A DNA stretch of 64,000 nucleotides, from NCBI GenBank assembly GCA_949283695.1, contig CASDTX010000018.1, positions 1 through 64,000 of the forward strand, in the 5' to 3' direction. Source of the DNA: an uncultured Eubacteriales bacterium (GTDB lineage Bacteria; Bacillota; Clostridia; Lachnospirales; Lachnospiraceae). A program made the position numbers and the translations under genes. Positions 1-13,710 of this stretch are shown piece after piece. Every line of letters begins with the position of its first letter. The first letter of the stretch is position 1. The notes beneath the pieces were generated by a model. That model was given only the letters and a program-made list of their open reading frames with translations. It was not told the origin of the DNA and ran no database searches.

Positions 1-44
1 AGATGGTTCACAAAGTGAAGCCTTAGTACTTTTTTGTAATCCAT
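1..44 (-). CDS. istA: IS21-like transposase IstA, first 14 codons (partial)
   Basis: ATG at 44 reads MDYKKVLRLHFVNH before the window edge. This resembles the N-terminus of IS21-family IstA transposases (MDY..VLRLHFVN). A good Shine-Dalgarno sequence, GGAGG at 56-52, lies 7 nt upstream and is partly buried in a hairpin. Only the beginning is visible, so the family call rests on this short stretch plus the repeat-rich element end. Confidence 0.55.
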   Translation of the reverse strand, partial: MDYKKVLRLHFVNH

Positions 45-51
45 AGTAGGA

Positions 52-105
52 CCTCCAGATATAATATTTCTCCATTTTAAGGAGATGCGCTTATTATATC
101 TGGAG
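52..105 (-). promoter_or_regulatory. Hairpin sequestering the transposase ribosome binding site
   Basis: A perfect 14-bp inverted repeat (53-66 against 92-105) encloses a second 5-bp stem (69-73 against 81-85). On the minus-strand transcript the 3' arm contains the GGAG of the IstA Shine-Dalgarno sequence. Read-through transcripts entering from the flank would fold this hairpin and hide the ribosome site. Other IS families use such a device to limit transposition. The fold is direct sequence evidence; the function is inferred. Confidence 0.55.
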
Positions 106-197
106 ATCTATTGTCCGGTTAATGTGTCCTTACGTGTCCGCTAATTATGTCTCAGACTGTCCGCCGAATATGGCACAGGTGTCCGTTTAGCCCGACA

Positions 198-577
198 ATC
201 TGCAGAATGATATATACAATTGTCGCGCCGGCCATATAGCCGGTGTACATTGCCATAATCCAGGATTCTCTTGTCTGAGCCAGCGCATCCGCGAGCTGGT
301 ATCCGCCCATATCTACGGCGATGAACGTGGTGGCGGCCATCGCGGCATCTGCCCCGCAGAGCTGAAACAGCGGGGCAAATACTTTCTTGATAAACCATGT
401 CAGGTAGGGGGCAGATGCCGTAACACCTGCAACCGGGATGAAAATCGCGCCGATAGAGTAGATGCCTTCCAGAAACTGCGCGCCCAGTTCACTGTCTTCC
501 TTAAATACGTATGCCATGCAGCCGATGAAAGCGCAGGCCATAATGAGATAAATAACAATATTACCGAACAGGATCAT
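198..577 (-). pseudogene. EutH-like permease, truncated by insertion sequence
   Basis: The frame opens at ATG 577 and gives about 126 residues similar to the N-terminus of the ethanolamine permease EutH. Matching features are an early hydrophobic helix, a QFLEGIYSIGAIF-type segment, and the motif FIAVDMGGYQLAD, which parallels LACDMGGFFLAK in enteric EutH. EutH proteins are usually about 400 residues. The similarity stops at the IS21-like end near 197, and the frame closes at 152 inside the element. It is the last gene of the minus-strand catabolic operon, 13 nt after the alcohol dehydrogenase. The substrate need not be ethanolamine, since no other eut gene is nearby. The gene is probably inactive unless the remainder is expressed separately. 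Confidence 0.65.
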
Positions 578-590
578 AATTCAGATATCT

Positions 591-1760
591 CTAGCGATAA
601 GATTTTTCCAGTATTTCCATGAAATCTGCTTCTGTTAAGGTATACCGGTCTAAATCAACTCCGACCTGATTAACAGTCATGTCTACAATCTTCGCGAAGT
701 CTTCTTTCTGTACGCCGAAATCCGACATCTTCAGATCCCGCACGCCTGCATCATCCAGCAGTTTCGTCAGCGCTTTTACATAAGCGTATCCCGGTTTCTC
801 AGGATCCCGGACTTCGCCCATCATTTCGCCTAACTCGTCGAACTCCTGCGGAAGAAGTGCGCAGACCTTTTTATAATATTCTTCTGCGACAACAATTAAG
901 GTTGCGCCGTGCGGAAACTTGTTGTAAAAGCCGCCGAGTGTCTGCCCCAGAATATGATGGGATGTCACACTGTCGAGCGCCATGCTGTATCCGCCGAGGA
1001 TATCCGCAGCGTACGCCATATTTGTGCGGGCATCCTTGTCAGAAGGATCATGGACTACTTTGATTAAGTTTTCTGCGACTGTCTTTACTCCGTCTGCGGA
1101 ATATAGATCCAGCAGGCGGTTTCTGTGGCCGTTGGTCACATAGCACTCAGCATTGTGGAACAGTGCGTCAAAGCCCTGGTAAATGGTGAGCATTTTAGGC
1201 AGAGACATCATAAGTTCCGGATCAATGATCGACAGTGTGGGGAAAATTGCCTCGGATGTAAAATCCAGTTTTTCGTTAGTATCCTGATTGGTAATGACAC
1301 AGTACTGATCACACTCTGTACCGGTTCCGCATGTGGTCGTAATCGTGACTACGGGAAATGCCTTGTCTGCTTCCTGGCGTCCGCCGGTTCCGGTATATGC
1401 GTAGTTCCACAGATCCCCTTCCAGGGCCAGCATCAGGGCGCATCCTTTCGCCGTATCAATGCTGCTTCCGCCGCCTAATCCAAGGGTGAAATCACAGCCG
1501 TTCTGCCTGGCGAATTCCGTGGCTTCTTCTACGCAGGCTTTTGTCGGATTGGGCTGAACCTTATTGTATACGGTGTACTCTGTGCCTCCTTCTTTCAGAA
1601 GATTTTCTACGCGTTCAAGGATGCCCAGACTCTCCATGAGCCCATCAGCCGTAATGCAGATGAGTGCCTTTTTTCCGGGCATTTTTAGATCTTTTAAGTC
1701 ATTTAACCTTCCATATCCGAAAACAACTCTGGTCGGTAAATATGTATCAACAGAAAACAT
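591..1760 (-). CDS. Iron-containing alcohol dehydrogenase
   Basis: A 389-residue group III (Fe-type) alcohol dehydrogenase, interconverting an alcohol and an aldehyde with NAD(P)H. The NAD-binding motif GGGSSID lies near residues 97-102. The four metal ligands of the family can be matched to D198 and H202 (in GFDALFH), H269, and H284 (in FPHG). The extra histidine near the cofactor, present in enzymes such as FucO, appears to be Gln273 here. The start at ATG 1760 is chosen because AGGAGT precedes it at good spacing. The longest frame would begin 17 codons upstream, inside the previous gene. It sits between the YitT-like and EutH-like genes, so it probably reduces an aldehyde from the operon's pathway; substrate unknown. 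Confidence 0.85.
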   Translation of the reverse strand: MFSVDTYLPTRVVFGYGRLNDLKDLKMPGKKALICITADGLMESLGILERVENLLKEGGTEYTVYNKVQPNPTKACVEEATEFARQNGCDFTLGLGGGSSIDTAKGCALMLALEGDLWNYAYTGTGGRQEADKAFPVVTITTTCGTGTECDQYCVITNQDTNEKLDFTSEAIFPTLSIIDPELMMSLPKMLTIYQGFDALFHNAECYVTNGHRNRLLDLYSADGVKTVAENLIKVVHDPSDKDARTNMAYAADILGGYSMALDSVTSHHILGQTLGGFYNKFPHGATLIVVAEEYYKKVCALLPQEFDELGEMMGEVRDPEKPGYAYVKALTKLLDDAGVRDLKMSDFGVQKEDFAKIVDMTVNQVGVDLDRYTLTEADFMEILEKSYR

Positions 1761-1764
1761 GTTG

Positions 1765-2406
1765 TTACTCCTTTCTTTCTTGCTTAGTTTCGACTGGCTT
1801 GTACTCCACAATCAGATCTATGACTTTTGAACAGACAGCTGTAAATATTGCAGAATACAGGATGCCTTCCCATTTGCCGAGCGCGAAAATGCCGACGGTT
1901 ATAATGGTAATATCCATCAGAAACAGTGCAGTCCCCACCGGGATCCACGGTTTCTTATAATGGAGGATGCTTGCGATAGAGGTTGTGCCGCCGGTAGTTG
2001 CCCCTACTCTGAGCAGCAGCCCTACCGCAATGCCTACCAGTACACTTGAAATAATGGTGAATAAGAATGTCTTTTCTAATGGCATCTCGGGGAAAACCGG
2101 CTGCAGCAGATCTGTGAAAAAAGAAATGCCGCAGATAGCTGCAATGGTGTAGCACAGACTCTTTTTGCCCATAAATGTCATACAGAAAAACATGATCGGT
2201 ATATTTACAAGGACGGTCATTAAGCCTATCGGTGTGCCGAACAGTCGATGGCAGACCATAGCGGCGCCTATGATATTTCCGGGTACGACCTCTGGCGGGG
2301 TCACACATACTGATACTGCAGATAAAATGCTCCCCGCCAGGATAAAGCCGCCTTCTTTTATGTAGTTTCTGATCTGTTTTGAATAATTATGCCCAGATAT
2401 CTCCAA
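1765..2406 (-). CDS. YitT/YczE-family integral membrane protein
   Basis: About 213 residues with five to six hydrophobic segments, and the motif GATTGGTTSIASIL typical of the YitT (DUF161) family. The C-terminal DUF2179 domain of longer YitT proteins is absent. There is no ATG near the start of similarity. A TTG at 2406 preceded by AGAGGGA is the best start and overlaps the upstream racemase gene by 20 nt. The longest ATG frame would overlap that gene by about 150 nt and adds residues unlike the family. It may move a substrate or product of the operon, but YitT transport functions are poorly defined. The family is clear; the role is inferred only from position. Confidence 0.7.
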   Translation of the reverse strand: MEISGHNYSKQIRNYIKEGGFILAGSILSAVSVCVTPPEVVPGNIIGAAMVCHRLFGTPIGLMTVLVNIPIMFFCMTFMGKKSLCYTIAAICGISFFTDLLQPVFPEMPLEKTFLFTIISSVLVGIAVGLLLRVGATTGGTTSIASILHYKKPWIPVGTALFLMDITIITVGIFALGKWEGILYSAIFTAVCSKVIDLIVEYKPVETKQERKE

Positions 2407-3445
2407 CGGTAAATCCCTCTGTAAATGGATCGGTCGGATCCAAAACATATGTATTGTAGCCGTAAATCCATGACTGTCCCCCAACGGTTGGAATAACCGC
2501 CGGATAGTCGCTGTATTTATTTTCAATTTCTTCAACCAGCTCTCCCGTATACACGATACCGAGGATCCCTTCGTGACGGAACTTCTGATGCAGCATCAAT
2601 TCTCCTTTCGCGTACATGACAGCCATCTTCGCGCAGGTGCCGGTGCCGCAGGGGCATCTGTCCAGAGCTGCTGTCCAGGTAGCCGGATTGTCCAGATCTA
2701 CAAAGCCGCTTCCCACGCGAACGGAATTCTTCCAGTCTGCGTTTGGATTGTCCGTAGGGCCGGACAGCTCTACATTCGTAATTCCGATTCCGGGATAGTC
2801 CGGATGGGCAACCGGAAGCTGCTGCTGGGCCGCGCCGAGAATCAGAGAGGTCACTCTGGTAATCTCAGCACCGTGCTCCGGTTTCAGCTCCAGGCCCGGG
2901 AACTGGCGGACGTCAGCGATGACATAAAACATGCCGCCCCATGCCACGTCCACTTTCACCTTTCCAAGGTGCGGGACATCGATTTCTTTGTCAATATATA
3001 CTGCAAATGCCGGAACATTTTTAAAGGTCACCTGAGTGACTTTGCCGTTATGGCATTCTGCGTGAATCCGGATCAGACCGGCGGGAGCTTCCAGCGTAAA
3101 CTCTGTAACCGGTTCCTTCATGGGGATCATACCCGTTTCAAGCAGCACCGTTGCCACAGATATGGTATTTCCTCCGGACATGACAGGGTATTCCACCTGC
3201 TCCATGATAATAAAGCCTGCGTCAGCTTCCGGATGCTTGGGCGGAACAAGGAGATTGCAGCACATCGGCGGATATCCTCTTGGTTCGCGAAGCATTAACC
3301 GACGGATCTGATCGTCGTTCTTCTCCAGCCACTTCATCTGTTCATACACAGAATCCCCCGGGATATTGGGAACACCGCTGGTCACAACTCTCATGGGCTC
3401 TCCGGAATGGGTCTCGACAGTTGTAAATGTTCTTTTAAAGCTCAT
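2387..3445 (-). CDS. Proline racemase-superfamily enzyme (Ser/Cys type; hydroxyproline epimerase-like)
   Basis: A 352-residue PF05544-type protein. This superfamily includes proline racemase, 4-hydroxyproline 2-epimerase and trans-3-hydroxyproline dehydratase. The two catalytic positions are Ser90 (in VMSGGNTIS, where racemases usually have a Cys) and Cys266 (in DRCPCGTGTCA). A Ser/Cys pair rules out the classical Cys/Cys arrangement and the Cys/Thr arrangement of the dehydratases. It is compatible with an epimerase variant. It lies 12 nt after the aconitase X small subunit gene, with AAAGGAGG upstream of ATG 3445. Together with AcnX this points to a proline or hydroxyproline-like imino acid, but the substrate cannot be read from sequence. 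Confidence 0.8.
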   Translation of the reverse strand: MSFKRTFTTVETHSGEPMRVVTSGVPNIPGDSVYEQMKWLEKNDDQIRRLMLREPRGYPPMCCNLLVPPKHPEADAGFIIMEQVEYPVMSGGNTISVATVLLETGMIPMKEPVTEFTLEAPAGLIRIHAECHNGKVTQVTFKNVPAFAVYIDKEIDVPHLGKVKVDVAWGGMFYVIADVRQFPGLELKPEHGAEITRVTSLILGAAQQQLPVAHPDYPGIGITNVELSGPTDNPNADWKNSVRVGSGFVDLDNPATWTAALDRCPCGTGTCAKMAVMYAKGELMLHQKFRHEGILGIVYTGELVEEIENKYSDYPAVIPTVGGQSWIYGYNTYVLDPTDPFTEGFTVGDIWA

Positions 3446-3457
3446 ATGCGTCCTCCT

Positions 3458-3883
3458 TTATTTATATACGATAACCTCGTCTTTATCTTCGAAGATCTCG
3501 ATCTGCTTCGCGCCTTCAAGCTTGGAATAATCTTCTTCTGACAGATTGATCACCGGAAGAATCTGTCCGTAAAAATGCTTGCAGATCAGCGGGCCCGTCA
3601 GAATGACAGGATCTGTATAGATATTAATCAGCGCTGCCGGCGCGGTTCCAAGGCGGAGCATTTCCATGAGGACCAGACCGGCCCCGCTGCTGCCTCTGCC
3701 GAAAGGAAAGGCGAAGGCTTTCCCTTTGATATTTTCCTGATAGTTTGCGTGGCGATAGTCTGCGATTTCACCGGTCTGAATATTAACGCCGCCGACAAAG
3801 CTAAAGGAATCATTTGAATATACCAGATCTATTTTCTTTGATTCCGAAATGACATTTTTGCATTTCAATGTTAATTTTTCCAT
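3458..3883 (-). CDS. Aconitase X small (swivel) subunit, DUF126
   Basis: 141 residues matching the DUF126 swivelling domain of aconitase X. The active-site serine loop is visible as GRGSSGAG. It forms a dehydratase with the DUF521 protein encoded immediately upstream. The start at ATG 3883 is supported by AGGAGG, 9 nt away, and overlaps the large subunit's last codons by 13 nt, suggesting coupled translation. Known AcnX enzymes are mevalonate-5-phosphate dehydratase in archaea and cis-3-hydroxy-L-proline dehydratase in bacteria. The racemase-like neighbour favours the second. Confidence 0.85.
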   Translation of the reverse strand: MEKLTLKCKNVISESKKIDLVYSNDSFSFVGGVNIQTGEIADYRHANYQENIKGKAFAFPFGRGSSGAGLVLMEMLRLGTAPAALINIYTDPVILTGPLICKHFYGQILPVINLSEEDYSKLEGAKQIEIFEDKDEVIVYK

Positions 3884-5139
3884 ATGCTGCCTCCTCTGAC
3901 CACTTTTCCTGCAACAGCTGTCTCCACGCAATCCTGGAGATTTCCGAATACCGGATGGATGCCTACTTTGTTGAAACAATAGGTCGCAAATTTCCCTGAA
4001 TTGGTCATTATCGACTTCGTTCCCCAGGCTGCGGTCGGATATTCCATGGTACAGCCGTCAACAAAGATCTGTACGCCCAGCCCTTTGATCCGATCCAGCA
4101 GTCCGCTGGACTCCATGTCTGCATAATTGGTACGGCTTGTGAATACCCACATAGCAGTGTCCGGATGAATCTTTCTGCCGGCAAGCGCGTGTTCAAGTTC
4201 CTGGAACTCTGCACACGAGAAATGGGGACAGCCCATGGATACCAGATCGATCGGTCCTTCTTCATTAAAGTTGCACAGCTCAGCCTCGGCTTCTTTCAGT
4301 TCTTTTAAACCAATGGTAACGACTTCTTTCGGTTCTTTTCCGCCAAATGCCATCTCCAGCGTCTGTGCCTCCGGAGTGATTCCGATCAGGTGGAACAGTG
4401 CGATACCGCCGGAAGAAGCAGCGGTAGCCGCGAATTGCTTCAGGTTGTCAATGGTCAGATTCCTCTTCGGCATTCCCTGAAGTGCCCAGACTCTGTTTCC
4501 GACGATCTTGCCGTATGCATAAGCAACGTAGTTAAACATGCTGGGATCATCGAACATTTCTTCTTTGATATCATCTCCCAGAACAACAAGTCCTTCTGCA
4601 TATCTGTTCTCTGTAATATGCAGGCCGAACTTCGGCACACGCCCGGCAATGCCGCAGAGAAGTTCCAGCGGGCCGGCATAGCGGTTCGTTCTTGCTCCGA
4701 CAATGGAATTCATAAATGAGATCACATTCGATTCAGCAAATGCGACCTGGGCTCCGAAAGCCGGGGAATATCCAAGCTGATAAGGCGCGCAGGACCATGT
4801 CGGGATAGCCCCCATCTTGATATGAGCTGCCTCGATGCGCCGTGTTGCGGACATCCAGCTGCTCTCATGCTTCTGGAGATCCCATCTCTTCATATCCAAT
4901 GCGCAGGCATTGGTGGATGTGGGAACAGAAAACTTCGCTCCGATATCAGCCAGATGCTCGGCAAACGCCACCTGTGCCTCGCCAAAATAAACGGTACTGT
5001 CGTCATGACAGGCTGTAATCTCTACAAACTCTTCCGCCCCGTAGTACTCGCCAAGATCATACAGGACTTTCATAGACATCTGGGCAGCTTCCCCGTGTTT
5101 ACCGTCTAAAAGTTCTTTTTCATATTCTGTTAATTTCAT
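3871..5139 (-). CDS. Aconitase X large (catalytic) subunit, DUF521
   Basis: 422 residues covering the whole AcnX catalytic domain. Cysteines suitable for a metal or iron-sulfur centre occur in NACALDMKRW, PTWSCAPYQ, MGCPHFSCAEF, VDGCTMEYP and the C-terminal FATYCFNKVG. Bacterial AcnX proteins of this kind include cis-3-hydroxy-L-proline dehydratase, which forms delta-1-pyrroline-2-carboxylate. The start at ATG 5139 has AGGAGG at 8 nt; a GTG two codons earlier sits too close to it. It lies 18 nt downstream of the DapA-like gene and overlaps the small subunit gene. The enzyme class is secure; the substrate is inferred. Confidence 0.85.
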   Translation of the reverse strand: MKLTEYEKELLDGKHGEAAQMSMKVLYDLGEYYGAEEFVEITACHDDSTVYFGEAQVAFAEHLADIGAKFSVPTSTNACALDMKRWDLQKHESSWMSATRRIEAAHIKMGAIPTWSCAPYQLGYSPAFGAQVAFAESNVISFMNSIVGARTNRYAGPLELLCGIAGRVPKFGLHITENRYAEGLVVLGDDIKEEMFDDPSMFNYVAYAYGKIVGNRVWALQGMPKRNLTIDNLKQFAATAASSGGIALFHLIGITPEAQTLEMAFGGKEPKEVVTIGLKELKEAEAELCNFNEEGPIDLVSMGCPHFSCAEFQELEHALAGRKIHPDTAMWVFTSRTNYADMESSGLLDRIKGLGVQIFVDGCTMEYPTAAWGTKSIMTNSGKFATYCFNKVGIHPVFGNLQDCVETAVAGKVVRGGSIWKN

Positions 5140-5157
5140 ATACACTGCCTCCTGCTT

Positions 5158-6051
5158 TTAATATAAAACATCCAGGTTAAATAACTGTTTCACCTCTTCT
5201 TTTTCGGCCTCTGTTAAAGCAACCCGCGGACGGCGGCAGTATCCTCCCACATGCCCTTTCAGATCCAGGACATATTTGATGGCCTGAACCGGTTTCGCAA
5301 CTGTCTCCAGAGCGGTTAATCCCGGAAGGATCTCGCAGTAGATGTTTCTTGCTTTCTCGTAATCTTTCTCTGTATAGACAGCTTCAAACAGGTTCACACA
5401 CTGCTTCGGGGCCATGTTCGCAAGCATGCTGATCCAGCCGACAGCGCCGCACACGAAACTCTCATAAGCCATATTGTCCCAGCCGCAGAATACGGAGACG
5501 TGGTCTGTTGAATCGTTGAGCACTTCTGTCAGTTTACGGATGTTGCCGCTGGACTCTTTCACAACCTGAACCTGCGGCAGCTGCATCAGTTTCTTGTACG
5601 TCTCTCTCTCGATTTCAACACCTGCGCTGGACGGATTGTTGTAGATCATAATTGCTCCGCCGTTCACATGATCTGCAATGTACTTATAATATTCGTAGAT
5701 CTCTTCCTGGCTTGGATGGCAGTAATAGGTAGGCAGGATCATCACTGCGTCAGCGCCGCACGCAAACGCGTTGTTTGCCAGATCAGAAGCCTCGTCCGGC
5801 ATCTCACGGGTACATCCGACAATCACAGAAACCCGGTCTTTGATATAAGGAACCATCTCGCGAACATATTCTTTATGTTCTTCAAGTGTGATGCTCTGAT
5901 ATTCACCGGTTGCGCCCCAGACACAGATCCCCGGGACTCCGGATTCAATCAGATAATCCAGGTGCTTCTTCGCTGCGTCATAATCGAACGATCCGTCTTC
6001 TTTAAAAGGTGTGATTGATACGGGATAAACGCCTACAAAATTCTTGTTCAT
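5158..6051 (-). CDS. DapA/NanA-family aldolase or lyase
   Basis: A 297-residue class I (beta/alpha)8 enzyme of the dihydrodipicolinate synthase/N-acetylneuraminate lyase family. Visible landmarks are the pyruvate-binding GATGE loop (residues 46-50), Tyr137 in MIYNNP, and the Schiff-base Lys165 in VVKESSGN. The family also includes 4-hydroxy-2-oxoglutarate aldolase, 2-keto-3-deoxy-sugar aldolases and the deaminase of hydroxyproline breakdown. It is first in the minus-strand operon, so it is unlikely to be the housekeeping lysine enzyme. GAAAGGATC precedes ATG 6051. It probably acts on a keto-acid product of the racemase/AcnX steps. Confidence 0.8.
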   Translation of the reverse strand: MNKNFVGVYPVSITPFKEDGSFDYDAAKKHLDYLIESGVPGICVWGATGEYQSITLEEHKEYVREMVPYIKDRVSVIVGCTREMPDEASDLANNAFACGADAVMILPTYYCHPSQEEIYEYYKYIADHVNGGAIMIYNNPSSAGVEIERETYKKLMQLPQVQVVKESSGNIRKLTEVLNDSTDHVSVFCGWDNMAYESFVCGAVGWISMLANMAPKQCVNLFEAVYTEKDYEKARNIYCEILPGLTALETVAKPVQAIKYVLDLKGHVGGYCRRPRVALTEAEKEEVKQLFNLDVLY

Positions 6052-6133
6052 GGTTTCATCGATCCTTTCTTTTACTTCGTTTTTAAAGTTTCTTGTTTGT
6101 CAATAATCACTTTCGCATCCTCTTGCTGCCCAT

Positions 6134-6162
6134 AATATATCAAAGCATTTTTGGCCAAACAA
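6134..6162 (-). promoter_or_regulatory. SigmaA-type promoter of the imino-acid operon
   Basis: On the minus strand, TTGTTT (6162-6157), a 17-nt spacer and TATATT (6139-6134) form a good vegetative promoter about 85 nt upstream of the DapA-like start. The rest of the 358-nt divergent gap (6052-6409) is AT-rich and holds no supported gene. Short frames there lack ribosome sites and similarity. Confidence 0.6.
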
Positions 6163-6323
6163 GAGTAATAATAGCCAAGAATCAGCCCCCAAATTTCACC
6201 ATAAAAAACAAAGGATTGACGAAAAAAATACCTCTTTTTGAGAGTGGTTTTTGTAAAATCGGAACCAGTTGTCAAAATATTTTTTCTGGATTTTTATTTA
6301 TTTCCCCTGTAAAATATAAATAA

Positions 6324-6346
6324 CTGTGAGAATCAATTTTTCACAG
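6324..6346. promoter_or_regulatory. Palindromic operator candidate for the divergent GntR regulator
   Basis: CTGTGA (6324-6329) and TCACAG (6341-6346) form an inverted repeat with an 11-nt centre, 64 nt upstream of the GntR-family gene and between the two divergent transcription units. HutC-type GntR regulators commonly bind such palindromes in their own promoter region. Function inferred from position and symmetry only. Confidence 0.35.
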
Positions 6347-6409
6347 CGACGGTGTACTATGCAGTTACATTCTTAGGCATATCACGAGAACAGGAAAAGA
6401 GGTTTTATA

Positions 6410-7138
6410 ATGAAAAAACATGAATTACTGGAAGAACAGCTGATTACCTTAATCAAGAATGGAGAAGGGTGTGACTCCAACGGTAAATTTATCAGCGAGA
6501 GAAAAATTTCCGAAATGTTTCATACGAGCCGCACAACTGTGCGTACTGCCATCTCAAATTTGGAAAAGCAGGGATATCTGCTTCCTCTTCACGGGAAGGG
6601 AACATTCGTAAAGAACAGAACCCGCACGCAGTCGATCTATTCCGTTATTCGCTGTGTACAGGCTTATGCGGAGATGGGGATGGATCCTTCCACCAAAATT
6701 ATCGAAAAAGAAATTGTGCCTGCCACCGAATCTGTGGCCGCCAATCTGAAGGTTGAAACCGGAGCGCCGGTTCTCTATATCAGTAAACTGTTTTTCGGCA
6801 ATCGGATGGTTTTCAATGAAACTCATTCCTATGTGTCTGCCGAACGGTTCCCGGGAATCGAGAAGCAGAAATTTTCTACAATGCCCATTTTAGAGCTCCT
6901 GCGGGCTTCCTATGACGCGCGGTCTTCACGGACTGAACACGCCATTGAAGCCATCCTGCCTCCGAAATCAATCGCGGAACATCTGCAGATAAGCACAAGC
7001 ACTCCGCTGCTTCTGTTCGAATCCGTAACATCCGGGAGCTATAAGGAAGAGTATGTGCCGCTGGAATATTTCAAATGTTATTATAAAACTGATTATTTAA
7101 GATTTCGTTTTGAGCAGAAACACGACCAGGATTTTTAG
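6410..7138 (+). CDS. GntR-family transcriptional regulator, HutC/UTRA subgroup
   Basis: 242 residues. The N-terminal winged helix-turn-helix (about residues 20-68) includes SERKISEMFHTSRTTVR and ends in HGKGTFV. The C-terminal UTRA effector domain (about 85-235) has the typical EKQKFSTMPILELL and PLEYFKCYYK segments. It is transcribed divergently from the imino-acid operon, so it probably senses the substrate or an intermediate and represses that operon and perhaps the BCCT gene. AGAGG precedes ATG 6410. A terminator follows at 7198. Confidence 0.88.
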   Translation: MKKHELLEEQLITLIKNGEGCDSNGKFISERKISEMFHTSRTTVRTAISNLEKQGYLLPLHGKGTFVKNRTRTQSIYSVIRCVQAYAEMGMDPSTKIIEKEIVPATESVAANLKVETGAPVLYISKLFFGNRMVFNETHSYVSAERFPGIEKQKFSTMPILELLRASYDARSSRTEHAIEAILPPKSIAEHLQISTSTPLLLFESVTSGSYKEEYVPLEYFKCYYKTDYLRFRFEQKHDQDF

Positions 7139-7197
7139 CACTGTAAGAAATTTTTATTTTCTTTTTATAATTTTCTAAAACTGATTCTTTCTTTTTA

Positions 7198-7226
7198 AAT
7201 ACCAGTTGTTCATACTGGTATTTTTT
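7198..7226 (+). terminator. Rho-independent terminator after the GntR gene
   Basis: AATACCAGT (7198-7206), a 7-nt loop and ACTGGTATT (7214-7222) form a 9-bp stem running into a T tract (TTTTTT to 7226). It separates the regulator from the BCCT gene, which must have its own promoter in 7227-7381. I see no strong promoter there beyond a TATGAT at about 7311. Confidence 0.75.
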
Positions 7227-7381
7227 CATGTAAACCTTTGATTTTGTACACAAAAAAGTGCAGTTCTTTTTATCAATTTTGAGCATAGTTATTTCCTCAG
7301 AATTACGCTATGATAGCGGTGTCAATAATCCTTTTGCATTGCTGTTAACTGAAAAAATCACAACATGTGAAAGGAAATATT

Positions 7382-8986
7382 ATGGATAATCAGAATATAA
7401 ATACCAAGAAAGAAAGTAAGAAAAAAATGAATCCTTTGATTTTCTGGCCGCCGACCATTATCCTTGCAATCTTTGTCATCGCAGGAGCTCTGCGGACAGA
7501 ACAGGTCGGAAAGATTATGACGGATATGCTGTACGGCATGTCAGATTATTTCGGATGGTATTTGAACTTGCTTTCTTTGATACTCTTACTGATCTCAGTG
7601 GTCTTCATTGTACGTAAATACGGAGATATCAAGATCGGCGGAAAAGATGCCGAGCCGATGTACACGATTCCTCAGTGGATCGCCATGACGATCTGCGGCG
7701 GAATCGGAACCGGACTTCTGTTCTGGGCAATGGGCGAACCGATCTACCATTTCGCTACGCCGCCTGCAGGCGCGGGAGTGGAGGCATTCTCAAGAGAGGC
7801 CGGTATCTTCGCTGTTTCACAGGCAATGTGGGACTGGTCTTTTGTTCAGTACGCAACCTATACCATTCCGGGAATTGCGTGGGCAATTCTGGTAAACAAC
7901 AAGAAAATGCCGCTTTCTTATAATTCACTTGTTAAATTTCTGTTTAAGAAAGATATTCCGTGGCTTGCCAATATCTTCCGTGTGCTGACTGTATTCTGCA
8001 TCTGCGGATGTGTAAGCAACTCTATGGGCGCCGGACTTTTGCAGATCGGCGGAGGCTTAAACTCTGTATTCGGCATTCCGCAGACAGCTCTGATCTGGCT
8101 GATTGTAGCAATCGTGATTGCGGCAATCTTCGTATTGTCTTGTGTGTCAGGGCTTGGAAACGGACTGAAGAAGCTCTCTACGATTACAATGTACCTGTTC
8201 TTCGCTCTGATGCTCTATACATTAGTAACAGGAAACACTACATTTATCGGGAAAATCACTTCCGAATCTATCGGAAATATGATTGATAATTTCGCTACAA
8301 AAACAACGATGATGAACGCAATGGTGCCGGGAGAAACCTGGTCAGCAGACTGGATTGTTCAGTATTTTGCTTCCTTTATCGTATATATGCCTGTTATGGG
8401 AATGTTCTTCTGCCGTATGGCAAAGGGGCGTACGATCCGTCAGTTCGTACTGCTGAATATCGGCGTTCCGTCGATCTTCTGTGTGATCTGGATCGGAATC
8501 TTCGGCGGACAGGCGATCTATCTCCAGACAAGCGGTACCATGGATATCTGGGCAGCTGTAAATGAGCAGGGGATGCAGGCAACTGTATTCCAGATTCTGC
8601 AGAGTCTGCCGCTTGGAAAGATCCTGTGCGTGGTCTTCCTGGTGGCGATCTGCTTCTCCTTCTGTACGCTGGCCGATCCGATGTCTTCCGCGCTTGCAAC
8701 TGTATGTGTAGACGGACTTCACATTGAGTCAGAGCCGCCGAAGAACTTAAAGATTATCATCGGTGTTGTTATTACAGCGGTTGCTTATACATCAGTGGCT
8801 ACCGGCGGTCTGAACTCGATCAAAGGACTCTTCGTTCTTGTCGGACTGCTGATGTCTGTGCCCGGGTTGTTCTGTCTGGCTGCATCATTCAAAGCATGCA
8901 GACAGGTTCTGCATGAGAAGAATTACGGCTGTCCGGAAAATGAAAACGAAAACATGGAACTGCTGGAAGATAAAGAAACCGTATAA
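7382..8986 (+). CDS. BCCT-family transporter with altered substrate-binding helix
   Basis: 534 residues with about twelve membrane segments. Family hallmarks are GGIGTGLLFWAMGEPI near residue 100 and MAKGRTIRQF after TM8. In typical betaine/carnitine/choline carriers TM8 reads W..FYWAWWISW, forming the aromatic cage for trimethylammonium. Here the aligned stretch is WIVQYFASFIVYMP, so most tryptophans are gone. Transport of a non-quaternary substrate is therefore likely, perhaps the imino acid handled by the neighbouring operon. AAAGGA lies 8 nt before ATG 7382; the longer frame starts with a GTG five codons earlier that lacks its own site. Family call sure, substrate unknown. Confidence 0.85.
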   Translation: MDNQNINTKKESKKKMNPLIFWPPTIILAIFVIAGALRTEQVGKIMTDMLYGMSDYFGWYLNLLSLILLLISVVFIVRKYGDIKIGGKDAEPMYTIPQWIAMTICGGIGTGLLFWAMGEPIYHFATPPAGAGVEAFSREAGIFAVSQAMWDWSFVQYATYTIPGIAWAILVNNKKMPLSYNSLVKFLFKKDIPWLANIFRVLTVFCICGCVSNSMGAGLLQIGGGLNSVFGIPQTALIWLIVAIVIAAIFVLSCVSGLGNGLKKLSTITMYLFFALMLYTLVTGNTTFIGKITSESIGNMIDNFATKTTMMNAMVPGETWSADWIVQYFASFIVYMPVMGMFFCRMAKGRTIRQFVLLNIGVPSIFCVIWIGIFGGQAIYLQTSGTMDIWAAVNEQGMQATVFQILQSLPLGKILCVVFLVAICFSFCTLADPMSSALATVCVDGLHIESEPPKNLKIIIGVVITAVAYTSVATGGLNSIKGLFVLVGLLMSVPGLFCLAASFKACRQVLHEKNYGCPENENENMELLEDKETV

Positions 8987-9184
8987 CGCGGACTGAACTG
9001 ATACAGACTGCGGTTTTACGAATGGCGCTCCTGTGAACGGTAACGCTGAAACAGATATTGGAGGTGTGTTTTCGGGCGCGGGAAAGCGCTTGACACCAAA
9101 AGGCGGGATGTTGGATATATTTTATGATCTGATATCGGCGGAGCGAGTGATCAGCAGAAGATGTTTGGAAAAAGGAGGAGAACA

Positions 9185-9673
9185 ATGAGATTTAGACACG
9201 AGAAAGAATTTTCTTTCCCAATGGACACGGCCTGGCAGGCACTGCATAAAGCAAGCAGTCTGGATGTTTCACCGGGGAGTGAAGTGACGGTGATCTCGGA
9301 TGTGGAGTGGACGGCCAAGACAACAGGCTCAGATGATAAGACACTGTCTGTCACCCATTATTATGCGGATTTTGACGAAGCGCAGAAACGGGCAACAATC
9401 GAAGGCGCCAGTGACAATAAAAAGGGCCATGATTTTATCTACCTGACCCTGGAAGAGATTTCTGCGGAAGCAGTGAAATTGATCATAGAGGTGGAGATTA
9501 ATACCGGGGCACACTTCATTGCGAAGGCTGTGGGGGCAGTATTATCAAAACCTATCGAACAGATTATGTGCAAACACATCTATCAGAATTTTGAAGCATT
9601 GTGTTCAGGGGAAGAAACGAAGCGGATGAGCAAGGAAGAGCTGGATGCACATGCTCAGAAATTTTTCTCTTAA
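9185..9673 (+). CDS. SRPBCC/START-like small protein, function unknown
   Basis: 162 residues, soluble, starting MRFRHEKEFSFPMDTAW and ending in a long amphipathic helix (SKPIEQIMCKHIYQNF). This pattern suits the SRPBCC ligand-binding fold, though I cannot name a specific family. AAAGGAGGA precedes ATG 9185; the longer frame from 9161 overlaps this ribosome site and is less likely. A possible TTGACA at about 9089 lies upstream with no well-spaced -10. It is followed by a bidirectional terminator. Its link to the BCCT gene is unproven. Confidence 0.55.
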   Translation: MRFRHEKEFSFPMDTAWQALHKASSLDVSPGSEVTVISDVEWTAKTTGSDDKTLSVTHYYADFDEAQKRATIEGASDNKKGHDFIYLTLEEISAEAVKLIIEVEINTGAHFIAKAVGAVLSKPIEQIMCKHIYQNFEALCSGEETKRMSKEELDAHAQKFFS

Positions 9674-9696
9674 ATGACAAGATGAATTTTATTTTT

Positions 9697-9737
9697 ACCA
9701 GACAGAGCCCGGAGCTTCTGTCTGGTTTTCTTTTTTC
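9697..9737. terminator. Bidirectional terminator between convergent genes
   Basis: ACCAGACAGA (9697-9706) pairs with TCTGTCTGGT (9717-9726), a 10-bp stem followed by TTTCTTTTTT on the plus strand. On the minus strand the stem runs into TAAAAATAAAAT, a weaker terminator for the superoxide dismutase gene. It separates the SRPBCC-like and sod genes. Confidence 0.8.
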
Positions 9738-9742
9738 GACAA

Positions 9743-10447
9743 TTAGGGCCGGCAGGCAGTGCTTTGACAGCAATTCCGATCCATTTGCTGATAAAACCGT
9801 TCTTCCACCATCCGCCAGTTTACCACGCGGAACCAGTCGTCGATATATGTGGCGCGGACATTATAATGCTTCAGATAATAAGCGTGTTCCCATACATCAA
9901 TATTCAGAAGCGGGTACTGGTTCTTCGACAGCGGTGTGTCCTGATTCGCTGATGTGGTGATCACAAGCCGCCGATTCTCTGCGACAAGCCATGCATAACC
10001 GGAGCCGAATACGGACAGCGCCGCCTCTTTAAACTGTGCCTGGAACTTTTTCGGACCGCCGAAGTACCGGGAGAGTTCCTCGGAGAAAGCGGTCTGGTTT
10101 CCGAGACCCGGGATCTCCCGGGGGCATGAGCAGGATGGGGCGGAAGTCCGCGGCATACGGGCCGGAGACATGCCGTCGAAATAGAAACGGTGATTAAAAA
10201 CTCCGCCCGCATTGTTCCGGACCGGCGTCTGAAGCGGTCGGGGAAGGCGGCACCAGTGAATTAAGAGCTCTTCCAGAGAAAATCTCCGAAGAGAAGGATT
10301 CTCTTCGAGCAGCTTGTTCAGGTTGTCGATATAGGTCTGAAGATGCCTGTCGTGGTGAAGGTGCATGGTCTTTTCGTCTATGAATGGTTCCAGAGCGCTG
10401 TAGTCGTAGGGGAGCGGGGTGTTTACAAAAGGATAATAATGATTCAT
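9743..10447 (-). CDS. Superoxide dismutase (Fe/Mn family)
   Basis: 234 residues. Metal ligands are visible as the His in MHLHHDRHLQ, the His in GGVFNHRFYF, and Asp plus His in DVWEHAYYLKHY. GGVFNH replaces the common GGGHxNH, as in other clostridial forms. The segment after FYFDGMSP (around residues 95-125) is rich in Pro, Ser and Cys and unlike the usual short linker. The C-terminal half (GYAWLV, DVWEHAYY) is normal. It detoxifies superoxide in the cytoplasm. It lies 50 nt after the XRE gene on the same strand and may be co-transcribed with it. Confidence 0.85.
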   Translation of the reverse strand: MNHYYPFVNTPLPYDYSALEPFIDEKTMHLHHDRHLQTYIDNLNKLLEENPSLRRFSLEELLIHWCRLPRPLQTPVRNNAGGVFNHRFYFDGMSPARMPRTSAPSCSCPREIPGLGNQTAFSEELSRYFGGPKKFQAQFKEAALSVFGSGYAWLVAENRRLVITTSANQDTPLSKNQYPLLNIDVWEHAYYLKHYNVRATYIDDWFRVVNWRMVEERFYQQMDRNCCQSTACRP

Positions 10448-10497
10448 GGAGTTCCCTTGCCGTTTTTTACAGTATATGAATGGATATGCCCGGAATG

Positions 10498-11097
10498 TTA
10501 AAGAAAAGTAAGCATGGCTAAAACAAAAAACAACCCAAGCAGGAGTACTGCCGGATCAATGCCGCACAGATACAGCAGGTATCCCGCGAACCCCAGACTG
10601 AAAAGGGTAAAAACGCCGTATGCTTTTCTGCTGTTGGTATCTGCTCTGTTCAGCACCTGAAGGCAGAGCCCAATGACAGCGAAAGAGACGAATATTCCTG
10701 CAGTCAACGCCCCTCCGATACTGGCATGTCCGAAAAGATAGACGACACCGGCCGCTGCGAGTGTCACCAGTCCTACTGTCCAGGTGAGAAAATGGTCCTG
10801 TCGTTGATTGAGCCGTTCCATCTCAACGGCGTTGGTCATAAGCTCAGCGGTAGTTTGCTCATCCTGTAAATATTGTTTTTCGGATTCCAATTTTTCAGAG
10901 CGCATCAGTTCGAGGACGGACAGGTCTAAGGCGTCTGCCAGGGGAACGAGAAGACTGATATCAGGGAATCCTTTCCCGCGTTCCCAGCGGCTTACCGCTT
11001 TGTCTGTGATTTGAAGTTTGGATGCCAGTTCTGCCTGCGTTAGATTCTTTTCTTTCCGGCACTGGGTAATAAATGTGCCGAATTTTTCTGCGTCCAT
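10498..11097 (-). CDS. XRE-family regulator with C-terminal membrane domain
   Basis: 199 residues. The N-terminal helix-turn-helix (about 8-62) reads LTQAELASKLQITDKAVSRW, typical of clostridial Cro/CI-type regulators. After a charged helix, three to four hydrophobic segments occupy residues 105-199, so the DNA-binding domain is probably membrane-anchored. CAGGAGGTGAG precedes ATG 11097. Targets are unknown; the downstream superoxide dismutase and the divergent two-component system are the nearest candidates. Confidence 0.8.
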   Translation of the reverse strand: MDAEKFGTFITQCRKEKNLTQAELASKLQITDKAVSRWERGKGFPDISLLVPLADALDLSVLELMRSEKLESEKQYLQDEQTTAELMTNAVEMERLNQRQDHFLTWTVGLVTLAAAGVVYLFGHASIGGALTAGIFVSFAVIGLCLQVLNRADTNSRKAYGVFTLFSLGFAGYLLYLCGIDPAVLLLGLFFVLAMLTFL

Positions 11098-11252
11098 ATA
11101 CTCACCTCCTGGATAAATGATATCATATCAGCAGTAAATCGGAAATCGACGGAACATTTCCTATTCTTATCCATGCATCATTGAGAAATAAATAAGCTTC
11201 TAAAATAAATAAAAAGTGTCAAGATATGATGAAGAGAGAAATTTTCTCATGA

Positions 11253-11281
11253 TTGCTTCAGAGGAATCTATCTGTTAGAAT
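11253..11281 (+). promoter_or_regulatory. SigmaA-type promoter of the first two-component/ABC locus
   Basis: TTGCTT (11253-11258), 17 nt and TAGAAT (11276-11281) lie 40 nt upstream of the response regulator start. The hexamers match the consensus well and the spacing is ideal. Confidence 0.6.
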
Positions 11282-11320
11282 AAGGGCGATAATAAGCCGG
11301 ACGCAGGAAGGAGATGTAGG

Positions 11321-11983
11321 ATGCTGATAGGAATTATTGAAGATGACCGACTGCTCAACCAGGCGCTTGAACATGTCCTGAGTACAGCCGGCTATGATAC
11401 GGTCTGTACCCATACGAAGGAAGAGGCACTTACCCTGCTCAGCGGAAATGAGGACCTTCTGCTGGTTGATATCGGACTTCCGGACGGAGACGGAATCCGC
11501 CTTTATCAGGAACTGAGAACCCGGGGAAAGACGCCGGCTATTTTTCTGACTGCCAGAGACGAAGAAAAGGATATGCTTGACGCGTTCAACTGCGGCGCTG
11601 ACGATTATGTTGTGAAGCCTTTTTCTATGAAAATTCTGCTGAAACGGGTGGAAGTGGTATTGAAGCGGAGCGGCGGCGATGAGATGCTTGTCTGTCGGGA
11701 TCTCGTGTTATATCCGGGGAGAAAGCAGGTGTTTCTGAACGGTGCGGAGATCGCGCTGACGGCAAAAGAGTACCAGCTGCTGGAGTATCTGATGATGAAT
11801 CAGAATCAGGTCTTGACGAAAGAGAATCTGCTGGATCAGGTCTGGGGTCTGGACGGCGATTTCGTGTCGGATAATACGCTCAGCGTGACCATCGGACGGC
11901 TGAGGAAGAAGATTGAACCGTGTGCGGGGCAGCCGGTGTATATCCGGAATGTGTTCGGCATGGGGTATCGGATGGGAGATTAG
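11321..11983 (+). CDS. OmpR-family response regulator (antibiotic-peptide module type)
   Basis: 220 residues: receiver domain with acidic pocket EDD (7-9), phospho-acceptor Asp50 in LLVDIGLPDG and Lys in VVKPF; then a winged-helix DNA-binding domain (about 128-220). It is followed 3 nt later by its kinase, then an ABC ATPase and a large FtsX-type permease, the layout of Bce/Vra-type peptide sensing and resistance modules. It probably activates the downstream transporter genes. Confidence 0.88.
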   Translation: MLIGIIEDDRLLNQALEHVLSTAGYDTVCTHTKEEALTLLSGNEDLLLVDIGLPDGDGIRLYQELRTRGKTPAIFLTARDEEKDMLDAFNCGADDYVVKPFSMKILLKRVEVVLKRSGGDEMLVCRDLVLYPGRKQVFLNGAEIALTAKEYQLLEYLMMNQNQVLTKENLLDQVWGLDGDFVSDNTLSVTIGRLRKKIEPCAGQPVYIRNVFGMGYRMGD

Positions 11984-11986
11984 AGT

Positions 11987-12919
11987 ATGATGGGGATTGG
12001 TATCATAGCTGCGTGTATGCTGGGATTCGGCGCAGGAGCGGGAGTGATGCTCCAGAGACAGAGGAGGATGCGGATGCGGGAATTGGAGCAGATCTCGCGT
12101 CTGGCGGAACAGATCATGAATGAGATCACGATCAGTGCCGCGTCCTCCGGGGAAGAAACCATGTTCGGCAGGATCGAACACCAGCTGGTTCGGGTGCAGG
12201 AGATGCTGCAGGGAAGGAAGGACGAGGCTGAGAGGAGCCGTGATGAGATCCAGAAACTGATCTCAGAGATTGCCCATCAGATGCGAACACCGCTGGCAAA
12301 TATCCGTACATACACAGGGCTTCTGGGAGAGGAGCCGGAAGAGAAGGACTATCTGGCTGCCCTGGAAGAAAGCGAGAAGAAACTTTGCTTTCTTGTGGAA
12401 AGCTTTGTCCGAATGGCCAGGCTGGAACAGCACATGATCCAGATCCGGAAAGAGGAGAAAGACATCCGCAGAACGATCCAGAACACGTTCGGACAGATTC
12501 AGACCCGGGCAGAGGAGAAGCAGATCCGGTTTGCAGTTGCACTGCCTGATGCAGTCAGCTGTCTGCATGATCCCAACTGGTTCGGCGAAGCCTTCTATAA
12601 TGTTCTGGATAATAGTGTAAAATACAGTGAGGCCGGGGGACGGATCGAAGTGGATGTTTCTGTAAATGAAATGTTTCTGAAGATCCGAGTGAGAGATTAT
12701 GGAATCGGTATTGATGAGGGCGAGGAGGCCAGGATCTTTCAGAGATTCTGCCGCGGAAACCGGGTGACGAATCAGCCGGGCTTCGGAATCGGGCTGTATC
12801 TTTCCAGAGAAATCATGAATCTTCACGGCGGTTCTATGACGGTGAAGCGAATGGACCCGGGGATCCGCATAGAAATGAACCTTCCGGTATCAGAAGTAAA
12901 TCCCCGGCAGCAGAAATGA
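11987..12919 (+). CDS. Sensor histidine kinase, short membrane anchor
   Basis: 310 residues. A single clear hydrophobic helix (about 3-23) anchors it and there is no sizeable extracellular sensor. The dimerisation box has His97 in IAHQMRTP. N, G1 and G2 boxes appear as NVLDNSVKYS, RDYGIGID and GFGIGLYLS. Kinases of this minimal kind often depend on their partner ABC transporter to sense peptides. It sits between its response regulator and the ABC ATPase. Family assignment is secure; the stimulus is inferred. Confidence 0.87.
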   Translation: MMGIGIIAACMLGFGAGAGVMLQRQRRMRMRELEQISRLAEQIMNEITISAASSGEETMFGRIEHQLVRVQEMLQGRKDEAERSRDEIQKLISEIAHQMRTPLANIRTYTGLLGEEPEEKDYLAALEESEKKLCFLVESFVRMARLEQHMIQIRKEEKDIRRTIQNTFGQIQTRAEEKQIRFAVALPDAVSCLHDPNWFGEAFYNVLDNSVKYSEAGGRIEVDVSVNEMFLKIRVRDYGIGIDEGEEARIFQRFCRGNRVTNQPGFGIGLYLSREIMNLHGGSMTVKRMDPGIRIEMNLPVSEVNPRQQK

Positions 12920-13002
12920 ATCTTCCGGCATGATTTGCTCCGTTGTCAGAAGATTGTCAGATTTACCATATATAATAGGCAGGGACAGGAGGTGTGCAAC
13001 GT

Positions 13003-13710
13003 ATGAAAATGGTAGATGCGGTAAATCTGAAGAAATATTATATTACGGATACCTATGAGGTACATGCGCTGGACGGCGTATCTCTGTCTGTTGAAGACGG
13101 GGAATTTCTGGCAGTGGTCGGTACGTCCGGCAGCGGGAAGACTACGCTTCTGAACATGCTGGGCGGTCTGGATGTCCCTACTTCAGGAGGCGTCTGGATC
13201 CGGGGGAACAGCCTGAAGGATATGGGCGGAGAAGAGCGGACGATCTTCCGCAGACGGAATATCGGATTTGTCTTCCAGCAGTATAATCTTGTTCCCGTGC
13301 TCAGCGTATATGAGAATATCATTCTTCCGCTGAGGCTGGACGGCGCGGAGGTCGATGAGAACCTGCTGGAAGAGCTGACGCAAATGCTGGGAATCCGGGA
13401 CAAACTGGAACGTCTGCCGGAGACATTATCCGGAGGTCAGCAGCAGAGGGCGGCCATTGCGCGGGCGCTTCTCTCGAAACCTGCGGTCATACTGGCCGAT
13501 GAACCCACGGGAAATCTGGATTCGGTTACCAGTATGGAGGTAGTGGGACTTCTGCGGTCCTGTGCCGCCAGGTTTCATCAGACCGTAGTATTGGTTACGC
13601 ACCAGGAAGAAGTGGCCCAGATGGCAGACCGGATCATCCGCATGGAAGACGGCAGGATCTGCGGGGCGGACAGGGGAACACCAAGAGAACAAGGAGGAGG
13701 CAATGGATAG
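13003..13710 (+). CDS. ABC transporter ATPase (MacB/LolD/BceA type)
   Basis: 235 residues with Walker A GTSGSGKTT, Q-loop VFQQYN, signature LSGGQQQR and Walker B VILADEPTGNLD. It energises the FtsX-type permease encoded next, whose start overlaps this stop by 8 nt. ATG 13003 is chosen because AGGAGG lies 10 nt upstream; the longer GTG frame begins too close to that site. TATAAT-like TATAATAG at about 12971 could be an internal promoter, but no good -35 is seen. Confidence 0.9.
   Translation: MKMVDAVNLKKYYITDTYEVHALDGVSLSVEDGEFLAVVGTSGSGKTTLLNMLGGLDVPTSGGVWIRGNSLKDMGGEERTIFRRRNIGFVFQQYNLVPVLSVYENIILPLRLDGAEVDENLLEELTQMLGIRDKLERLPETLSGGQQQRAAIARALLSKPAVILADEPTGNLDSVTSMEVVGLLRSCAARFHQTVVLVTHQEEVAQMADRIIRMEDGRICGADRGTPREQGGGNG

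Follow-up and report, generated by a model that had tools for sequence, protein, structure and literature searches.

The trans-4-hydroxy-L-proline operon encodes an epimerase, a D-hydroxyproline oxidase, a deaminase and an alpha-ketoglutarate semialdehyde dehydrogenase. As described in PMC4113996, the DHDPS-family enzyme of that pathway removes ammonia from Δ1-pyrroline-4-hydroxy-2-carboxylate, a step for which aldol cleavage is not needed. The glycyl-radical HypD route of gut Clostridia dehydrates its substrate instead of oxidising it and yields Δ1-pyrroline-5-carboxylate (PMC7077986). For the aconitase X (AcnX) of P. aeruginosa, 2,3-cis-3,4-cis-3,4-dihydroxy-L-proline is a substrate that is turned over about 300-fold more slowly than cis-3-hydroxyproline, and the authors of that work deduced that Δ1-pyrroline-4S-hydroxy-2-carboxylate is the product of the dihydroxyproline reaction (PMC5144071). 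In this work, we have analysed the first 64,000 nucleotides of a contig (C18, GenBank CASDTX010000018.1) from the assembly of an uncultured Eubacteriales bacterium (2.9 Mb, 79% complete). This stretch, called the window, begins with an operon that combines both AcnX subunits with a DapA-family enzyme, an enzyme of the proline racemase superfamily (PRS) and an iron-containing alcohol dehydrogenase (Fe-ADH).

The operon probably serves a hydroxyproline-type imino acid through dehydration (probability of about 0.7). It shares with the trans-4-hydroxy-L-proline operon a DapA-family enzyme that is 58% identical and the predicted intermediate. It differs from that operon in having no oxidase, Cys/Cys epimerase or aldehyde dehydrogenase, with dehydratases in front and an alcohol dehydrogenase behind. 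The predicted dehydration is its likeness to the HypD route, whose enzyme belongs to another family and whose product is different; HypD is absent from the window operon, the part of the genome to which that comparison was limited. The features of the locus are as follows.

5158..6051, minus strand: DHDPS/DapA-family enzyme, predicted Δ1-pyrroline-4-hydroxy-2-carboxylate deaminase type (PF00701, 201 bits)
3871..5139, minus strand: aconitase X large subunit (PF04412, 412 bits)
3458..3883, minus strand: aconitase X small (swivel) subunit, which carries the Val and Gly that replace Trp35 and Thr72 of AtAcnX (PF01989, 71 bits; aligned to 7cnp and relatives)
2387..3445, minus strand: PRS with Ser90/Cys266, predicted 3-hydroxyproline-type epimerase/dehydratase (PF05544, 346 bits)
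1765..2448 (ATG start) or ..2406 (TTG start), minus strand: YitT-family membrane protein (PF02588, 129 bits)
591..1760, minus strand: Fe-ADH, predicted pathway aldehyde reductase (PF00465 and PF25137)
152..577, minus strand: truncated EutH, N-terminal third (PF04346, 127 bits, positions 2-122 of 351)
6410..7138, plus strand: GntR/UTRA regulator, divergent (PF07702, PF00392)
7382..8986, plus strand: BCCT-family carrier with an altered aromatic box (PF02028, 373 bits)

The families and their order on both strands were obtained by a Pfam and NCBIfam search, in which the main Pfam scores are far above the cut-offs, so the gene content is not a chance observation. The spacing along the operon is 18, -13, 12, about -62 (-20 with the alternative YitT start), 4 and 13 bases. 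These gaps of at most 18 bases and overlaps fit one operon, and the operon is real and tight. The first-pass annotation of this DNA had already described the AcnX, PRS, DapA-family and Fe-ADH genes as one operon with a divergent GntR regulator and BCCT carrier, which the family search and the spacing confirm. Its observation is confirmed in part: the two membrane carriers that it placed in the operon are a YitT-family protein and a EutH fragment, the latter excluded by its start coordinate of 591. Its statement that oxidase and pyrroline reductase are missing holds at the operon level, where the search of the operon proteins found no oxidase, pyrroline reductase, 4-hydroxyproline 2-epimerase or semialdehyde dehydrogenase. 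OCD and Ldh_2 are two families of Δ1-pyrroline-2-carboxylate (Pyr2C) reductases (PMC4113996). No OCD-family gene was found across the 79%-complete assembly, a search that did not extend to Ldh_2-family reductases. A hydroxyproline-operon oxidase used as the query against the assembly had one match, an FAD oxidoreductase that is 29% identical and whose locus resembles the GlpA type as judged by eye.

Relatives of the DapA-family enzyme, PRS and AcnX

The DapA-family enzyme is most likely a Δ1-pyrroline-4-hydroxy-2-carboxylate deaminase and not an aldolase, as judged from its kinship and motifs. Close relatives at E 1e-60 were found only in G439 and G328 among 392 genomes of the order, besides its own genome (57-59% identity). 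The operons of both genomes also encode a PRS, a 2Fe-2S/FAD/ferredoxin/DAAO-type set and an aldehyde dehydrogenase, and the PRS of the G439 operon is of the Cys/Cys type. Most proteins of both operons have counterparts at loci of Bacillus badius and Priestia megaterium, and the gene set matches the trans-4-hydroxyproline pathway described in PMC4113996. Such operons were assigned by gene set and are known here from their genes, none of their enzymes having been assayed. The window enzyme (58% identity) forms a clade with the G439 and G328 proteins in a tree of 20 rows (support 100/100). The search of plasmids matched 1643 records, of which 30 were listed and six loci were opened (H1, H2, H5, H9, H18, and H19). 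Three of these six (H1, H2, and H9) are trans-4-hydroxyproline-type operons, H5 and H18 are partial or betaine-type sets, and H19 is neither. The window enzyme retains the Lys and YNNP motifs, and it has GATGE and YNNPSSAG where DHDPS has GTTGE and YNVPSRT. The Arg of YNVPSRT is Arg138 of DHDPS, whose role is presumed here.

The PRS has Ser90 in the motif MSGGN and Cys266 in RCPCGTG, the pair noted in the first-pass annotation. A dyad of this kind, with Ser on one face and Cys on the opposite one, occurs in cluster 9 of PMC4113996, whose 4-hydroxyproline epimerase promiscuously accepts 3-hydroxyproline as well. The best score of the PRS to an NCBIfam PRS model is 302 bits against a cut-off of 550, and five other PRS models score lower. 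No relatives at E 1e-90 were found in the 392 order genomes outside its own. The plasmid search at E 1e-100 gave 28 records (26 from Rhizobium, 27 at 60-80% identity). The identity is 72-74% to the Rhizobium enzymes and 68-74% when Peteryoungia is included, and two aligned Rhizobium rows have the same Ser/Cys pair and insertion.

The neighbourhoods of 13 of the 28 plasmid loci were read by tblastn and annotation, with Pfam on three. An Ldh_2-family gene adjoins the PRS in 11 of the 13, a DapA-family gene lies within 12 kb in four (L123 by annotation), and no AcnX was found near the PRS in any of them. These loci differ from the window in their genes for NADH:flavin oxidoreductases and Ldh_2/OCD reductases, and the DapA-family protein adjacent to the PRS in Peteryoungia is 31% identical to that of the window. 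One Peteryoungia locus combines genes for betaine uptake, OCD, a DapA-family enzyme, an aldehyde dehydrogenase, a DAAO-type oxidase, and this PRS. The neighbourhoods suggest that the PRS clade probably belongs to the breakdown of 3-hydroxyproline or of (hydroxy)proline betaine. Many Rhizobium loci are near-copies of each other, so the counts are not independent. The NADH:flavin oxidoreductases at the PRS loci presumably resemble StcD. StcD is the N-methylproline demethylase of Sinorhizobium (PMC12239276). Loci of Rhizobium and Peteryoungia (L111, L114, and L116-L120) combine ProXWV-type uptake, NADH:flavin oxidoreductases, Ldh_2 or OCD, and the PRS relative, a set that resembles a pathway for hydroxyproline betaine.

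The numbering and the roles of AcnX residues follow PMC8184944; the numbers are shifted by 10 relative to the deposited chain, as derived by eye. The window AcnX keeps the equivalents of Ser70, Asp203, Cys273, Glu292, Ser293, Lys530, and Tyr534 and the three Fe-S cysteines of TkAcnX, as mapped by eye on alignments. It has Val in place of Trp35 and of Ile206, Gly in place of Thr72, and Ser in place of Cys71. Asp203 binds the ring nitrogen and is replaced by Ala in TkAcnX, and contacts made by Trp35 and Ile206 are a possible reason why 2,3-cis-3,4-cis-3,4-dihydroxy-L-proline is an extremely poor substrate (PMC8184944). The window enzyme shares with AtAcnX the family, the two-subunit form, the catalytic Ser/Lys/Tyr/Glu, the nitrogen-contact Asp, and the expected 3-hydroxy amino-acid substrate. 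It differs from AtAcnX by the changes at Trp35, Thr72, Ile206, and Cys71, by type-II Fe-S cysteines, and by an operon that has no Pyr2C reductase. Mevalonate 5-phosphate dehydratase was rejected as an identity, as the protein resembles the cis-3-hydroxyproline enzyme more closely (224 versus 169 bits) and keeps Asp203.

Seven close AcnX loci (AcnX at least 55% identical, 20-21 kb each) were compared, namely the window, contig C46 of the same genome, G056 of the same genus, Clostridiales GPF-1, Butyricicoccus faecihominis, G821, and G863. In a tree of 23 AcnX large chains, the seven form one group (100/100) that contains a Trp-type group (100/97) and a Val-type group (94/98). Val35 is common to the window, B. 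faecihominis, G821, and G863, and Trp is found in the three oxidoreductase-linked loci. The AcnX of B. faecihominis has 82% identity to that of the window. A wider group of ten members (97/96) adds Phaeobacter, whose AcnX adjoins an annotated OCD-family gene, G899, whose AcnX adjoins the start of an OCD-like gene (by eye), and Rhizobium sp. BG4. Subclasses IIc to IIf of AcnX were left without function by the authors of the crystal structure, as given in PMC8184944. The window clade may belong among these subclasses by its residues. The close-type AcnX is rare among the genomes searched. It occurs in 2 of 58 genomes of the genus and, at E 1e-80, in 2 of 392 genomes of the class (own genome included in both counts, the other class member being a 39% relative). 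In the Butyricicoccus family, 4 of 87 genomes have it at E 1e-80 (the centre's own included, one being a 37% relative).

The cluster on C46 (L046, G000:C46:15000-34999; 2492-15604) is a BCCT-AcnX-PRS paralogue of the window genes, with identities of 55-58% for BCCT, 59% for AcnX large, 55% for AcnX small, and 72% for PRS. Its neighbours encode a 2-oxoacid:ferredoxin oxidoreductase (alpha, beta, and gamma by Pfam, and a small ferredoxin-like gene by eye), an ADP-forming acyl-CoA ligase, a PhzF-family protein, a PucR-type regulator, and an amidohydrolase whose nearest model is Xaa-Pro dipeptidase (225 bits against a cut-off of 500). The ligase scores best to acetate-CoA ligase (466 bits) and 419 bits over near-full length to 4-hydroxybutyrate-CoA ligase, both far below the cut-offs. 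Similar sets with RidA are present in G056 and GPF-1 (by eye). Among the seven close loci, both AcnX subunits are present in all, BCCT in four, PRS in three (two pieces in G056), the oxidoreductase with the ligase in three, a GntR-like regulator (50% identity, window counted) in three, YitT in two, and an OCD-family gene in two (B. faecihominis by Pfam, G821 as a near-identical copy). The PRS of G056 (L047 1891-2891) consists of two overlapping open reading frames and may be frameshifted.

Predicted pathway and alternative explanations

The proposed pathway starts from what is observed, namely the gene content, the spacing, the residues, and the hydroxyproline-type setting of the DapA-family and PRS relatives. 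Dehydratases of the 3-hydroxyproline type are combined with a deaminase of the 4-hydroxyproline type, so breakdown of a doubly hydroxylated proline that needs no flavin oxidase is the probable function of the operon. Deaminases of this type require a 4-hydroxyl group and Fe-ADH requires an aldehyde. If AcnX, PRS, the DapA-family enzyme, and Fe-ADH form one chain of steps, their starting compound has to carry a 3-hydroxyl group for AcnX and PRS and a 4-hydroxyl group for the DapA-family enzyme. The simplest substrate that lets AcnX, the DapA-family enzyme, and Fe-ADH work in series is 3,4-dihydroxyproline, and we tentatively predict, at somewhat less than even odds, that it is the substrate of an oxidase-free anaerobic route.

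We infer the substrate, its stereochemistry, the order of steps, the step and substrate of Fe-ADH, and the substrate of the carrier. The BCCT carrier would import 3,4-dihydroxyproline. AcnX would dehydrate the 2,3-cis form across C2-C3, and PRS would epimerise C2 or dehydrate the 2,3-trans form, both routes yielding Δ1-pyrroline-4-hydroxy-2-carboxylate. The DapA-family enzyme would deaminate this pyrroline to 2,5-dioxopentanoate (alpha-ketoglutarate semialdehyde) and ammonia, and Fe-ADH would reduce the aldehyde to 5-hydroxy-2-oxopentanoate, which would consume reducing equivalents. The formulae balance (C5H9NO4 minus H2O; plus H2O minus NH3; plus 2 H).

The interpretation in the first-pass annotation, a hydroxyproline-type pathway of dehydration, aldol cleavage, and aldehyde reduction without an oxidase, is supported in part. 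Its start, its end, and the missing operon oxidase stand, on the basis that the nearest DapA-family and PRS relatives lie in hydroxyproline-type loci and that AcnX retains the nitrogen-contact Asp. The aldol cleavage is unsupported because the DapA-family enzyme groups with enzymes of trans-4-hydroxyproline operons, whose DHDPS-family step is a deamination. The substrate that it gave as a hydroxyproline isomer or a related compound is narrowed, as it should bear both hydroxyl groups if the DapA-family enzyme acts in series.

It has been reported that 3,4-dihydroxyproline occurs in diatom cell walls (PMC4557024). A literature search of titles and abstract openings, with subscription journals mostly outside it, returned no description of a dihydroxyproline pathway or of such an operon. 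A broader form of the prediction, which we consider doubtful, is a dedicated 3,4-dihydroxyproline pathway with an AcnX clade of opened C4 pocket, in which the semialdehyde is reduced and the 2-oxo acid is perhaps converted to 4-hydroxybutyrate with gain of ATP in a redox-balanced fermentation. As speculation, the ferredoxin oxidoreductase and the ADP-forming ligase of C46 may oxidise 5-hydroxy-2-oxopentanoate and yield ATP. If the dihydroxyproline route is true, parts of the 3-hydroxyproline and 4-hydroxyproline routes would merge into a single oxidase-free pathway, and an anaerobe could use the 4-hydroxyproline deaminase by making its central intermediate through dehydration. This would be an extra mode of hydroxylated-proline breakdown besides the HypD and flavin routes. 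The operon also offers a specific testable function for the AcnX clade. Hydroxyectoine, 3-hydroxy-trimethyllysine, and carnitine were also considered as substrates; they would fit BCCT, RidA, and the C46 oxidoreductase, and were set aside as the PRS and DapA-family relatives indicate prolines.

Several observations weigh against 3,4-dihydroxyproline as the substrate. The joint conservation of the gene set, which the first-pass annotation had named as a test of its interpretation, is partial: the neighbour counts show that the core is partly conserved and the full set is not, as the DapA-family gene and Fe-ADH each occur in one of the seven close loci, the window alone. In B. faecihominis and G821, the Val-type AcnX adjoins an OCD-family reductase gene and there is no DapA-family gene; in G863 it has neither neighbour. 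The position of Trp35 is occupied by Leu in TkAcnX, whose substrate is acyclic; Val therefore signals another or a larger substrate and is no specific mark of a 4-hydroxyl group or of dihydroxyproline. No close relative of Fe-ADH was found among 266 genomes, where the best match has 43% identity. EutH is broken, and both EutH and YitT are without a place in the proposed pathway. ProXWV-type (betaine) uptake and NADH:flavin oxidoreductase genes are near the PRS in 7 of the 13 plasmid loci. The window DapA-family enzyme passes the NCBI dapA equivalog TIGR00674 (211.1 bits against a cut-off of 206.15), to which its G439 relative scores 194 bits, below the cut-off. In B. badius and Priestia, the genes of the hydroxyproline operons are likewise annotated as dapA, so the name is not decisive. 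Despite the cut-off, a true DapA of lysine synthesis is held unlikely by the motifs, the kinship, and a separate DapA-family member of the genome (292 bits) that has both DHDPS motifs.

The operon could instead serve two substrates, with AcnX and PRS dehydrating cis- and trans-3-hydroxyproline to Pyr2C, and the DapA-family enzyme and Fe-ADH processing Δ1-pyrroline-4-hydroxy-2-carboxylate that an oxidase encoded elsewhere makes from 4-hydroxyproline. In other bacteria, a hydroxyproline cluster often handles several isomers (PMC5144071), the DapA-family relatives lie in 4-hydroxyproline-type operons, and the PRS and AcnX relatives lie beside genes of Pyr2C-reductase families. However, the assembly yielded neither an OCD-family gene nor a convincing hydroxyproline oxidase in the searches described above, and the window PRS is not of the Cys/Cys type of the G439 operon. 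We regard two substrates as unlikely.

A substrate with N-methyl groups is improbable to a similar degree. The BCCT carrier would then import hydroxyproline betaine or N-methyl-hydroxyproline, and AcnX and PRS would dehydrate it with the N-methyl groups on or removed elsewhere. The presence of BCCT beside AcnX in four of the seven close loci, the betaine uptake and NADH:flavin oxidoreductase genes near the PRS relatives, the change of the nitrogen contact Thr72 to Gly, and a Yoonia locus that combines DapA-family, aldehyde dehydrogenase, MttB-family, and BCCT genes are consistent with such a substrate. However, no demethylase gene was found in the operon by the Pfam/NCBIfam search, and the ring-nitrogen-binding Asp203 is kept. 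The carrier itself, which is a BCCT protein by its Pfam score, retains Trp189 and Tyr197 of BetP and has lost four Trp residues of the aromatic box (Trp194 to Tyr, Trp373 to Ser, Trp374 to Phe, and Trp377 to Tyr, in what we take to be the BetP numbering), which may prevent it from binding a methylated ammonium group. The four BCCT carriers of the close AcnX loci (including L046, L047, and L005) share these changes. For such a non-standard carrier, the substrate cannot be deduced from the family.

The aldol cleavage was the initial favourite of this work. The DapA-family enzyme would split 5-amino-4-hydroxy-2-oxopentanoate, the open AcnX product, into pyruvate and aminoacetaldehyde, and Fe-ADH would form ethanolamine that is carried by EutH. 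The DapA fold includes aldolases, EutH directly follows Fe-ADH, and the score of Fe-ADH against the choline dehydrogenase model is 189 bits (cut-off 550). This model fell behind because the DapA-family relatives, at 58% identity, were found in hydroxyproline-type operons; EutH is also truncated here, and we now consider the model very unlikely. The explanation that AcnX, PRS, and BCCT form one pathway and that the DapA-family, Fe-ADH, and EutH genes are adjacent for another purpose would fit C46, which has AcnX, PRS, BCCT, the oxidoreductase, and the ligase with no DapA-family or Fe-ADH gene within the 20 kb read, but it has little probability for seven same-strand genes with gaps of at most 18 bases and the DapA-family gene first.

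Accessory genes and other AcnX loci

Fe-ADH has 17 NCBIfam matches that are all below the cut-offs, the best being ErcA, choline dehydrogenase, and 4-hydroxybutyrate dehydrogenase (186-189 bits). The GntR regulator has a 50% identical counterpart that is divergent from AcnX in B. faecihominis and G821. The EutH fragment matches NCBIfam positions 1-124 of 413, and its likeness to full EutH stops at window position 203. No second EutH piece was found in the 79%-complete assembly. Window positions 1-203 stand in place of the remaining EutH and contain a 17-base inverted repeat (50-66 / 92-108), and window 1-230 has no match in the plasmid collection. The break in EutH may be due to an insertion element or to an assembly artefact at the contig end. 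A gene of the Fe/Mn superoxide dismutase family is located at window 9743-10447 on the minus strand, near the end of BCCT.

Other AcnX loci have different neighbours. AcnX pairs at L009 23-12542, L048 5714-9937, and L052 9261-14584 are beside genes of the histidine (aromatic amino-acid) ammonia-lyase family and/or urocanase. L009 also has an imidazolonepropionase-like amidohydrolase, a formiminotransferase, and two AcnX pairs in tandem. The AcnX of these loci may act on a histidine derivative. At L053 5881-10654, AcnX is beside BCCT and an MttB-family methyltransferase, and at L012 9995-18950 of Candidatus Formimonas warabiya it is beside a RidA-like gene and three MttB-like genes (one confirmed by Pfam, the rest by eye). 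Both loci again associate AcnX with methylated amines.

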